Shown piece by piece: positions 28,722 to 33,675 of a DNA stretch of 37,558 nt. This DNA comes from Nitrospira sp. (GTDB lineage Bacteria; Nitrospirota; Nitrospiria; Nitrospirales; Nitrospiraceae). The position numbers and the translations under genes were made by a program. Where the stretch lies: positions 1 to 37,558 of the forward strand of contig JAJONL010000019.1 in assembly GCA_021323395.1 (NCBI GenBank), in the 5' to 3' direction. Position 1 is the first letter of the stretch, and the number at the start of each line of letters is the position of its first letter. A model generated the notes under the pieces. That model did no database searches. It was not told the DNA's origin and saw only the letters and a list, made by a program, of their open reading frames with translations.

Positions 28722-29006
28722 GGGCTTGACCTACGAGGGTGAGTGGCTTTTTTAAAGCTTATCATAGACATCAGGAGAGAGCGTCTCGTGGATGATGCAA
28801 GGAATGGAAGCGGTTCATGAGAATTGCGGAAGAATATGGGGTGCGTGGAATAACAGAATCATTGGTTGATATATGTGCTGTATGCGCACGATACTAAATA
28901 AAAAGTTATATCATTCACGATTATAACGGCAGTCTGATACGGAAGGGATATCTAGGCAGGGCAGCTGCTGGTTCTGAGCTCAAGAACATCGCTCGCAAGT
29001 GTTCCG

Positions 29007-29036
29007 TTGACATTTATCCCCGCGGTTGGCTACCCT
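29007..29036 (+). promoter_or_regulatory. Candidate promoter of the Lys/Glu-rich secreted protein
   Basis: TTGACA (29007-29012), an 18-nt spacer and TACCCT (29031-29036; T, A and final T match) give a start near 29043, just upstream of the tandem repeats. The region 28740-29000 is AT-rich (notably 28850-28930) and contains no gene I can support. Confidence 0.55.
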
Positions 29037-29058
29037 CAGGCGCCCTTGTGGTGGGCAC

Positions 29059-29102
29059 AATTAATCTCAACCTTTCAAGCAATTAATCTCAACCTTTCAA
29101 GG
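29059..29102 (+). repeat. 22-bp tandem duplication in the leader of the 59-residue gene
   Basis: A 22-bp unit beginning AATTAATCTCAACC and ending TTTCAAG(C/G) occurs twice in tandem at 29059-29080 and 29081-29102, with one mismatch at the last base. The second copy runs directly into the AAGGAGG ribosome binding site. Confidence 0.9.
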
Positions 29103-29112
29103 AGGGGTTCCC

Positions 29113-29292
29113 ATGAAGCGTGCATTATTTGCAGTCGTTGCGGCAGCCATCCTCGTTGCATTCACCGCTCCGTCGTTTGCCGGCGAAGAGAAGAAGAAGG
29201 ACGAGAAGAAGGGCGGACACTTCTCCCAGACCCTCTTCGGTGAAGAGAAGAAGGAAGAGAAGAAAAAAGACGAGAAGAAGGGCGGACACTGA
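29113..29292 (+). CDS. 59-residue secreted Lys/Glu-rich protein with a duplicated GGH motif
   Basis: The ATG follows AAGGAGG with 7-nt spacing. Residues 1-23 are a standard signal peptide (MKRALFAVVAAAILVAFTAP then SFA, cleaved before GEE). The mature 36 residues consist of two charged blocks, GEEKKKDEKKGGH and GEEKKEEKKKDEKKGGH, separated by FSQTLF. A 22-bp identical DNA repeat (29200-29221 and 29269-29290) encodes the shared DEKKGGH ends, so the gene arose by internal duplication. The terminal His and Gly-Gly-His could bind metal ions. A strong terminator lies 32 bp downstream. No family is recognised; a periplasmic location is inferred. Too highly charged to be an enzyme. Confidence 0.75.
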   Translation: MKRALFAVVAAAILVAFTAPSFAGEEKKKDEKKGGHFSQTLFGEEKKEEKKKDEKKGGH

Positions 29293-29323
29293 TCTCAGGT
29301 CCCCACGTTCTTTCGTAATCTTG

Positions 29324-29366
29324 AATTGGCTCGCGATCCGGAGGCCGGCGCGAGCCAATTTTATTG
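29324..29366 (+). terminator. Rho-independent terminator after the 59-residue gene
   Basis: Perfect 12-bp arms AATTGGCTCGCG (29324-29335) and CGCGAGCCAATT (29349-29360) with a 13-nt loop are followed by TTATT. It insulates this one-gene unit from the DUF5329-like gene. Confidence 0.9.
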
Positions 29367-29491
29367 GTGTCCATTCTCGATTGTATTCATCCCCGAAGTT
29401 TTCATCACATCCGGTAGCGTGATCCCCGTCTCAGCTGCATCCTGGGCAACATGCGGGTGTAGACTTGCGGCAGAGAACATTCGGACGCGAT

Positions 29492-29872
29492 ATGGAGAGT
29501 CAGCGGAAGAAACCGATCATTGTCGTCCTACTTCTCCTGTGCGCCTCACTCGCCTCAGCCGACGAGCCCGATGCGGCGGCGAGGGACGAGATTGCGCACC
29601 TGTTTTCTTCTCTAGCGGCATCCGGCTGTCAGTTCTATCGCAATGGCTCCTGGTACAGCCCTTCACGCGCTGTCGGTCACCTCCAGCAGAAATACGAGTA
29701 CTTTCTAAAAAGGAAACTCGTGTCGACGGCCGAATCCTTTATCACGCAAGCTGCAACCGCGAGCAGCACGAGTGGAGACCCGTATCTGGTCAAATGCGGC
29801 GAGGCGCCGGCGATCGAAAGCGCTACGTGGTTTACTCAACAGCTGACGCGATATAGGGCAGCGTCGAAGTAG
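29492..29872 (+). CDS. DUF5329-family secreted protein
   Basis: The protein starts MESQRKKPIIVVLLLLCASLASADE, a signal peptide with likely cleavage after ASA. The mature part has the DUF5329 pattern: DEIAHLFSSLAASGCQFYRNGSWYS, HLQQKYEYFLKRKLVSTAESFI, and SGDPYLVKCGEAPAIESATWF with two conserved cysteines that probably form a disulphide. The function of the family is unknown; the location is the periplasm. I use the ATG at 29492 because it begins the signal peptide; a frame open to 29465 adds nine residues. It lies about 100 bp before the large fusion gene. Confidence 0.82.
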   Translation: MESQRKKPIIVVLLLLCASLASADEPDAAARDEIAHLFSSLAASGCQFYRNGSWYSPSRAVGHLQQKYEYFLKRKLVSTAESFITQAATASSTSGDPYLVKCGEAPAIESATWFTQQLTRYRAASK

Positions 29873-29976: not shown

Positions 29977-32900
29977 ATGACACATACAAATGCCCCGCGC
30001 CAGCCGAATCGCCTCATTCATCAGACCAGTCCCTATCTTCTTCAACATGCCCACAACCCGGTGGACTGGTATCCCTGGGGGCCTGAGGCACTGGCCCAGG
30101 CGGCGCGGCTAAAACGTCCGATTCTCCTCTCCATCGGGTATTCGTCCTGTCACTGGTGCCATGTGATGGAGCGAGAATCGTTTGAGAACGAGTCGATTGC
30201 CCGCCTGATGAACGACCATTTTGTGTGCGTCAAAGTCGATCGGGAAGAGCGGCCGGATCTCGACGAGATTTACATGCAGGCGACTCTGGCGTTGAACCGC
30301 AATCAGGGCGGCTGGCCGATGACGGTATTTCTCACGCCGGATCAGAAACCGTTTTTTGCCGGCACCTATTTTCCGCCCGAGGACCGCTGGGGCCGGCCCG
30401 GCTTTCCGACTCTTCTCAAGAAAATTGCGGAGTACTGGGAGAAAGACCAAGCGGGGGTGCTGTCACAAGCGTCCAGCCTCACGGCCCGCCTGCAGGAGGG
30501 AGGTCATGCCCCTTCCCCCACCACAGTGGGCGAAGCGGAACTCGATACGGCAGTGACCCAGTTCGCGGAAGACTTCGACGCCAAGCATGGGGGATTCGGC
30601 GGGGCGCCCAAGTTTCCTCCTGCGACCGGCTTATCGCTCTTGCTCCACTGTCACCACCGCACGAAAGATCCCCACACGCTGACGATGGTCCGAACCACGC
30701 TGGATGCCATGGCAGCCGGCGGCATCTACGATCAGATCGGCGGCGGCTTTGCCCGCTACTCCACCGATGAGCGCTGGCTGGTGCCGCATTTTGAGAAGAT
30801 GCTGTACGACAATGCCCTGCTGGCCCGTGTGTATGTCGAAGCCTATCAAGTGACCGGTGATGCCAATTATCGTCGCGTGGCCTGCGAGACGTTGGATTAC
30901 ATCCTGAAAGAGATGACCTCCCCGGAAGGCGGATTTTATTCCGCGACCGACGCCGACTCGGAAGGGGTCGAGGGTAGATTCTTCGTCTGGACGCCCGACG
31001 AAATTCGAGCGGCGGTGGAAAACGATGAGGATGCGAGGCGATTCTGCGCCTATTACGACGTCACACCGGGTGGAAATTGGGAACACAAGAATGTCCTCCA
31101 TACGCCTAAGACTGTCGAGGCCGTTGCCAAGGAATTAGGGATTACCGCGGACGAGTTGCAGCAGACCGTCGCGCGGGTCAAGCCATTGGTCTATGCCGCG
31201 CGCGCCGCACGAATCGCTCCCGGACTTGACGACAAGGTCATCACCGCCTGGAACGGCATGATGATCAGCGCCATGGCGGAAGCCGGACGTGTGTTCGAGT
31301 TGCCGCGGTATCGCGACGCGGCCCAACGCGCGTCCGATTTTCTTCTCGCCGGTCTCTCGAAACCGGACGGGCGGCTTCTGCGCACCTATCGCGCCGGCAC
31401 AGCCCATTTGGACGCCTATCTGGAAGATTATGCCTATTTCGCCGAGGGCTTGATCGAGACCTATGAAGCGGGCGGCAATGAGCGCTATCTTTCAGCAGCC
31501 ATCCGTCTGGCCGAGCGCATGTTGGCGGATTTTGCGGATGCGAAGCATGGCGGGTTCTTCACCACGGCCACGGACCACGAGGCCTTGATCATGCGAAGCC
31601 GGGAAGGGCCGGACGGAGCCACACCGAGCGGCAATGCGGTCGCTGCATCAATCCTGGCTCGGTTGGCCTATCATTTCGACCGGGATGAATTCCGTCAGGC
31701 GGCGGCTGCGGCCGTGCGAGCCTATGGCCGGCAGATAGCCCGCTATCCCAGGGCCTTTGCCAAGAGTTTGCTGGTGGTGGATCTTCTGACAAGCGGGCCG
31801 ATGGAGATCGCCCTGGTCGGCTCGCCGAACGATCCCCACACGGCCTCTTTACGTGCCGCAGTCAGCCGGGCCTATCTGCCGAATCGTGTCATCGCCTATC
31901 GGGATCCGCAACAGCCAGAGACAAGCCATCCATTGTTGCAAGGCAAGACGTTGATCGACGGCAGGGCGGCGCTGTACGTCTGTCGTAACTTTGCCTGCCG
32001 GCAGCCAATCACCGACCCGGCGGAGCTTCCTGCCCTGCTCAATTCTCAGCAGGCGGCACAGCCTTCTCCCACCGCTTCGGAGCAAAAGGTATTGGGCGGA
32101 ACGTTGCTGTCTGGCGCGGCTACCATCCAGGGCACAGCGGCCTATGCGGCACGAAAGATCCATGAGGCCTCAGCGGCTGGGTCCCTCGCGAAAGGATTCG
32201 GACCGTTCGGGGCTACTGGACTCACGGTGAGCCGTCTCGGGTTCGGCACCTATCGGATTGGCCAGCGTGATGGTGAACAGCGGGATGCCCTGACCAAGGC
32301 CCTGCGTATGGGCTGTAACCTGATCGACACCTCGACCAATTACATGGACGGCGAGAGCGAACAGCTGGTGGGATCCGTCCTGCAGCAGTTGATTAGCGCC
32401 GGCGAGGTGACTCGCGAGGAAATCATCGTCGTGTCGAAGATCGGGTATGTGCAGGGCCAGAATCTGACGCAGGCTCAGGCAAGGGAAAAGGCCGGCAAGC
32501 CCTATCTGGATATGGTGAAGTACGGCGAGGATATCTGGCACTGTATCCATCCGGAGTTTTTGGCCGACCAGCTCACCCAGTCGTTGGATCGTTTGGGACT
32601 CGCCACATTGGATATCTGCCTGCTCCACAACCCGGAATATTTTCTCTCCCACGCGACCCGCCTTGGCAGTACGGACGCGCCTGATCTGCCTGCATTGCGC
32701 GATCAATTCTATGCGCGAATCCAACTGGCTTTCGAGTACTTCGAGACGCAAGTGCAAGCCGGACGGATTCGTGCCTATGGCCTGTCGTCGAATACGGCTA
32801 CCGCGCCTCCCAGTGATTCGAGCGCCACTTCCCTGTCCCGCATGGTGGCGGCGGCGAAGGCGGCTGCCAAGAAGATCGGAGCGTTGGCCCATCACTTCGC

Positions 32901-33675
32901 CGTCCTGCAATGTCCGATGAATCTCTACGAATCCGGCGCAGCTCGGATCCCAAACACCGGTGCGAATGAGAGGTATACCTTGATGGAAGAGGCCATGCGG
33001 GAAGGCACGGCGGTGTTGGTCAATCGTCCGTTGAACGCGATGCCTGCGCAACGGGGCGGGGTCGTGCGTCTGGCGGATGTGACAGTTCAATCAGCCACGG
33101 TAGAATTCGACCAGCAGCGGCAGAAGGTCGCGACACTGGAGGAGGAATATCGGACAGCCCTGGCCCCGTCCGTGCCCCATAGCGGACAAGGCATCGCGCC
33201 CAGTGATTTTTTCCGCTGGGCTGATGAGCTGGGCCGCATCCGCTCGCAAGTGCAGGGATTGGAGCATTGGGAACAAGTCGAGCAACAGATGATCGCACCC
33301 CACGTCAATCAGGTCATGAGGGCGCTTTCGGAAGCCTTCACTGGAGCCGTGGCCGAGCAGTGGGAAACCTGGCGTGATCGTTATGTGCCTGAATTGCTGG
33401 CGCTTTTGAAAGCGCTGCAGGCAGAGGCCGCCGAACGAAGCCGGATGCGCAGCGAGGACATGCATCGCCTGTTGAATCCGTTGCTGCCGGAAGCGAAACG
33501 TAAGGCCTCGTTGTCGCAAAAAGCCTTGTGGATTCTTGCCAGCACGCCAGGTGTGACCGCCGTGTTGAATGGGATGCGGTCGCCGGCCTATGTGGACGAT
33601 GCCCTGGAGATCTTGCGTTGGGACCCCTTGCCGGATCCGCGACGGATCTATGACCTCTGTGCCGCGAAGAAGTAA
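29977..33675 (+). CDS. DUF255/YyaL thioredoxin-domain protein fused to an aldo/keto reductase
   Basis: A single 1232-residue frame joins two families. Residues 1-~180 are the DUF255 thioredoxin-like domain ([13 protein letters not shown], then [13 protein letters not shown] with Cys58 and Cys61, and [12 protein letters not shown]). Residues ~190-700 are the six-hairpin glycosidase-like part of YyaL proteins ([45 protein letters not shown]), as in bacterial YyaL and SPATA20. After a ~40-residue Ala/Thr-rich linker comes an aldo/keto reductase (from about 740, [18 protein letters not shown]) with the catalytic tetrad Asp784, Tyr789, Lys821 and His884 intact. The reductase has a helical insertion (about 1042-1170) before its C-terminal region. 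No signal peptide. The substrate is unknown; the fusion suggests the two activities act together, which is inference. The YyaL part usually stands alone at about 680-700 residues. Confidence 0.9.

Follow-up and report, generated by a model that had tools for sequence, protein, structure and literature searches.

The open reading frame at 29113-29292 of the window (the whole 37,558-nucleotide stretch of Nitrospira sp. DNA that was analysed) is a real gene. Its conservation and a pN/pS of 0.10 put it beyond chance. It belongs to a family of small exported repeat peptides that is near-universal in the Nitrospiraceae and specific to them. Two copies of the family appear, from their sequences, to be ancient and separately regulated paralogs. 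The genomes compared support the gene and its conservation, a predicted export signal and conserved charge. They also support two classes of promoter, the terminators, homogenised paralogs and, in most members, 5' hairpins. We infer high abundance, disorder in vivo and a material role for the product. Our tentative choice is an abundant, disordered, Sec-exported polyampholyte that may act as bulk envelope or matrix material.

Among the nitrite oxidisers of wastewater and of many natural environments, Nitrospira are dominant. The family has two defined regulatory regimes and a simple product that can be synthesised, so its role becomes testable. It also offers a marker for sigma-54 regulation in organisms that lack routine genetics, with the exact enhancer-like site occurring no more than once per genome.

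The gene and its signals

The features of the window copy are as follows.

29007..29036 (+), sigma-70-type promoter, TTGACA - 18 - TACCCT, at a fixed position upstream of the copies at the malic/yyaL locus
29042..29056 (+), short 5' UTR stem-loop, GCCC-N7-GGGC, placed where the transcript is expected to start, position kept in relatives
29058..29101 (+), 22-bp tandem duplication in the 5' UTR, with no counterpart in relatives
29100..29105 (+), Shine-Dalgarno AGGAGG, 7 bases before the ATG
29113..29292 (+), ORF for the exported repeat peptide, 59 aa, frame conserved in relatives, low pN/pS
29113..29181 (+), signal peptide, read directly off the sequence and conserved family-wide
29182..29289 (+), mature Lys/Glu part, 36 residues, two KKGGH blocks
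29185..29229 (+), repeat copy 1, 45 nt
29254..29298 (+), repeat copy 2, 45 nt, 89% identical
29324..29368 (+), terminator, 12-bp stem then TTTTATT

The product is MKRALFAVVAAAILVAFTAPSFA / GEEKKKDEKKGGHFSQTLFGEEKKEEKKKDEKKGGH, where the slash marks the predicted cleavage site after ...SFA. The signal peptide was assigned by eye, and the promoter and hairpin assignments rest on sequence only. A sequence-only reading of this DNA had described a 59-residue protein with a signal peptide, two GGH blocks in a 36-residue mature part, a strong ribosome binding site, its own promoter and a strong terminator. All of these are borne out, and the signal peptide is of the Sec type. The promoter is conserved across the genus: TTGACA lies at 29007-29012 and TACCCT at 29031-29036, and the aligned relatives have TTGAC(A/T)-17/18-TACC(C/T)T at a fixed place. 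A generic promoter scan did not flag it, and the sole match of that scan was a chance-level site at 28866. The terminator hairpin (29324-29360) folds at -27.7 kcal/mol, with a z of -4.4, and is kept with covariation in 20/20 type-A genes inspected. Its arms change together across relatives, with GGCTCGCG/CGCGAGCC becoming GGCCCGCG/CGCGGGCC. Such features support the further suggestion of a single-gene unit built for high expression.

The protein was called unrecognised, and it has no Pfam or NCBIfam match above cut-off and no relative among the solved structures searched. The NCBIfam family NF041742 (WGxxGxxG) gives a weak profile match over the signal-like N-terminus (E 0.076), at 13.6 bits against a cut-off of 35. 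The AlphaFold2 model is of low confidence (pLDDT 60, pTM 0.25).

An identical 22 bp had been noticed twice within the gene and read as a recent duplication. The identity is there (29200-29221 and 29269-29290), but the repeats are ancestral. Nearly all orthologs have 74 aa and three repeats. Exactly 45 bp (KDEKKGGHLSQTVFG) are missing in frame from the window gene, between short GAAGAGAAGAAG-like repeats. This exact loss relative to the three-repeat orthologs makes the window gene a contraction, not a recent duplication. The recent duplication at this copy is the tandem in the 5' UTR (29058-29079/29080-29101), which is absent from relatives and moves the promoter from -84 to -106; the sequence-only reading had passed over it. 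Elsewhere in the family, one locus (L159, G085:C56:131636-132181) carries two copies in tandem.

Distribution and selection

Conservation of the reading frame in relatives had been set beforehand as a check. The frame is conserved, and a 14-sequence profile matches 158/175 Nitrospiraceae genomes (155/175 with a single query). Across the phylum 104/110 Nitrospiraceae match, where 110 is the matched members plus six listed non-matching ones, versus 3/~286 other Nitrospirota, and all three of those are weak. The family is absent from a few Nitrospiraceae, and the sigma-70 copy from some genomes. Loci taken from different collections overlap in part. A weak family match in the window genome (L062, G000:C96:5709-5900, minus strand) is a small exported Lys/Met-rich protein (MKQIMLSLIAIMCLVGFTSLSFADEMGKTKDEMKGDMK...) that is probably unrelated, and it was dropped.

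The window gene has both marks of the family, which are a signal peptide ending APSFA/APAFA and repeated [DE][DE]KKK[DE]EKKGGH blocks. Among 88 members the mature part averages 49 aa with 32% Lys/Arg (almost all Lys), 27% Asp/Glu and 17% Gly. Its GRAVY is -2.1; Cys and Trp are absent, and Arg and Pro nearly so. For 19 full-length orthologs pS is 0.26 and pN 0.027, which gives the pN/pS of 0.10, and 2609/2875 differences fall at third codon positions. D/E swaps make up 539/804 nonsynonymous codon differences in this set, as pairwise counts rather than independent events. Two thirds of the amino-acid differences are thus D/E swaps, and this points to selection on charge.

Conserved charge combined with drifting residue identity is in keeping with a disordered bulk polyampholyte. 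In the mechanism we propose, the mature repeat peptide would probably be made in large amounts. It would work outside the inner membrane as bulk material, and not through one folded active site. The short charged Lys/Glu blocks might serve as spacers that alternate with GGH-aromatic patches acting as stickers. Many weak electrostatic contacts could then form or condition a hydrated periplasmic gel or an extracellular matrix, and a matrix conditioned this way may pack cells into microcolonies. An envelope role had been proposed along with others for this gene. It fits best among them, as an interpretation of the sequences. It must be noted that the GG-His motif is better conserved than pure filler would need. 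The missing sigma-70 copy in some genomes, and the missing family in a few Nitrospiraceae, also count against a material role.

The histidines raise another line of reasoning. The His of KKGGH and the nearby acidic residues could bind Cu, Ni, Zn or Fe, which would make the peptide a periplasmic metal buffer or carrier. His follows KGG in 174/210 blocks of the 88 members, and these repeated blocks conserve their charge. Yet the other 36/210 blocks have another residue there, mostly Lys or Tyr, and 6/88 members are free of His. There is no Cys or Met cluster, and the neighbours at both loci are not metal genes. Like ATCUN peptides, the window peptide contains Gly-Gly-His. An ATCUN site has X-X-His at the mature N-terminus, whereas here GGH is internal or C-terminal as made and the predicted mature start is GEE. 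Proteolysis after Lys-Lys would expose a Gly-Gly-His N-terminus, which is a classic ATCUN copper/nickel site. Since His after KGG is common but not universal, we treat metal binding as a rival and not as the main reading, and we consider it unlikely.

Two loci with two promoter classes

The window copy is flanked by a malic enzyme gene and yyaL, an arrangement conserved within the genus and in other genera too. In most genomes of the window's genus another copy lies next to mug, nudix and gcvT. The one in the window genome is L061 (G000:C177:6321-6545, minus strand), which has a sigma-54-type promoter and an enhancer-like element at C177:6699-6729. Copies at the mug/nudix/gcvT locus have a putative -24/-12 sigma-54-type promoter (GGCAAGGACCTTGC) about 70-90 bases before the ATG. 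A dyad-like element, GGCGGTTTAG-N8-13-CTATTCTGCCACAG, lies about 123 bases further upstream.

Locus and promoter class coincide almost perfectly. The malic/yyaL locus has 33 sigma-70 promoters and 1 sigma-54 promoter, and the mug/nudix/gcvT locus has 0 sigma-70, 55 sigma-54 and 1 of neither kind. These are counts of distinct sequences, but the genomes are related, and the nominal Fisher p (1e-23) therefore overstates their independence. The upstream dyad occurs in 58/67 regions of the sigma-54 class versus 0/29 sigma-70 regions, with the 67 drawn loosely enough that the type-A genes L001 and L002 were wrongly included. A sigma-54 match upstream of the window copy and L002 is a chance product of the loose pattern, and it disappears once position is restricted.

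In 21 genomes the exact enhancer-like site occurs at most once per genome. It is present in 12, upstream of the sigma-54 copy, and was not found elsewhere in the 21, so a wider regulon was not identified. The upstream regions of three N. moscoviensis nxrA genes show no enhancer-like site by eye and no fitting sigma-54 site. Sigma-54 has been argued to control mainly the bacterial exterior (PMC3162934). On that argument, a role at the exterior suits a family with one sigma-54-controlled copy.

In most members of both classes a stem-loop can form near the expected 5' end. The arms differ yet stay complementary (GTGCC/GGCAC, ACGCCGA/TCGGCGT, GTACCGA/TCGGTAC, GTTTGCCTGA/TCAGGCAAAC), and the automatic arm search takes in some chance hairpins. 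Mean z is -1.3 over the first 32 nt, versus -0.26 (sigma-54 class) and -0.04 (sigma-70 class) over the last 32 nt. The stem of the window copy is short and weak, and its UTR as a whole shows no unusual stability (z +0.66). One can imagine a regulatory RNA, with stem-loops at both ends of a short transcript that matters in itself while the peptide is incidental. The pN/pS, the conserved frame, the Shine-Dalgarno sequence and the signal peptide all argue against this, and we give it hardly any credence.

Homogenisation of the paralogs

In 11 genomes with both copies, the mature parts of the two are 94.8% identical when taken from one genome and 88.6% when taken from different genomes (permutation p ~1e-4). 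No such effect is seen for the signal peptides, at 61% both ways. Both copies in G003 have an unusual GEGKKK start, and the mature proteins of the two copies in G023 are identical. The within-genome similarity implies either gene conversion or selection acting in parallel, so that two regulated sources yield one mature product.

Expression and function

We take G082 to be N. moscoviensis. It has five nxrA-like genes, and its bacterioferritin pair and a third bacterioferritin copy sit at places that fit published tags. Its third copy of the peptide family (2324069-2324290) encodes a 73-aa protein, MKRFSMMVALAAFVGAGAMATVAMADEDKKEEKKGGH..., and is 46-52 called genes away from the bacterioferritin that we equate with NITMOv2_2541, as counted with a simple home-made caller. 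The tag distance from NITMOv2_2496 to NITMOv2_2541 is 45. Among 76 genes the third family copy scores highest for nxr-like codon use, and no other small exported candidate lies nearer. Genome-average tag density puts NITMOv2_2496 ~14 kb away from it, so the match is not certain. We argue from gene order that the third family copy is probably NITMOv2_2496. That gene is listed with nxrA/B/C among the most transcribed genes of N. moscoviensis (PMC6606698).

If so, a top-transcribed gene of N. moscoviensis belongs to a near-universal family confined to the Nitrospiraceae. NITMOv2_2496 is then probably a divergent third paralog in that genome, with a signal peptide and DDKKDEKKDKGGHVVF repeats. It differs from the window copy in signal peptide and locus, and neither promoter class was found there. 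The check for a transcript is therefore answered in part: a probable paralog in another species is among the top transcripts, but this does not show that the window gene itself is expressed. No named match to the family turned up in the literature on N. marina proteomics or on a comammox metatranscriptome.

Composition suggests a further possibility. Hydrophilins are defined by Gly above 6% and a strongly hydrophilic composition, and the window mature part has both (Gly 6/36, GRAVY -2.39). It shares with hydrophilins and LEA-like proteins a glycine-rich, very hydrophilic, repeated and disordered-looking sequence, and might protect periplasmic proteins against water or osmotic stress. Unlike them it is exported, restricted to one bacterial family and without a family match. 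Against the LEA/dehydrin Pfam families the search returned only DUF4179 (E 0.14), below cut-off. One of the promoters is of the general sigma-70 type. The transcriptome in which the probable N. moscoviensis paralog ranks at the top came from steady chemostat growth without stress (PMC6606698). We regard a protectant as distinctly improbable.

The peptide could also be a dedicated partner of nitrite oxidoreductase (NXR), for example in assembly or packing of the periplasmic enzyme. The probable paralog is transcribed at NXR level, and in many genomes of two large genera one copy lies ~13 kb from nxrA. This neighbourhood was striking at first. However, about a dozen ordinary housekeeping genes lie between the family copy and nxrA, and in the window's genus the family copies do not neighbour nxrA. 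An NXR operon component would be adjacent to nxr or in its operon and co-occur with it in all genomes; neither was found. Several genomes have NxrA without the family (e.g. G034, G068, G124), and some show the reverse (G030, G119). Distribution and gene order disfavour an NXR partner, and we consider it very unlikely. At E <= 1e-30 there is no NxrA match in the window genome (G000, a 99.7% complete Nitrospira assembly) or in the single-contig relative G119. Either a gap in the assembly or a true absence could explain this.

The bulk polyampholyte is our preferred reading. Its fullest version is an exported bulk polymer that is specific to this lineage of nitrite-oxidising and comammox bacteria, has not been described before and is produced at NXR level. 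It would come from two concertedly evolving genes, one with a general promoter and one with a sigma-54 promoter and its own enhancer site. The polymer would form a condensed periplasmic or matrix phase, and might be cleaved at Lys-Lys/Gly-Gly-His to expose copper-binding N-termini. Taken as a whole, this version is speculative and has a low probability.

The region downstream of the gene

In relatives, L033, L034 and L053 among them, yyaL starts ~150 bp after the stop codon of the peptide gene. The window has ~0.5 kb of extra DNA between the two genes, which holds a putative exported 135-aa ORF with a TTG start (29465-29872, plus strand). The yyaL-like gene that follows (29977-33675, plus strand) encodes 1232 aa and is, by eye, apparently fused to an aldo/keto-reductase-like domain.
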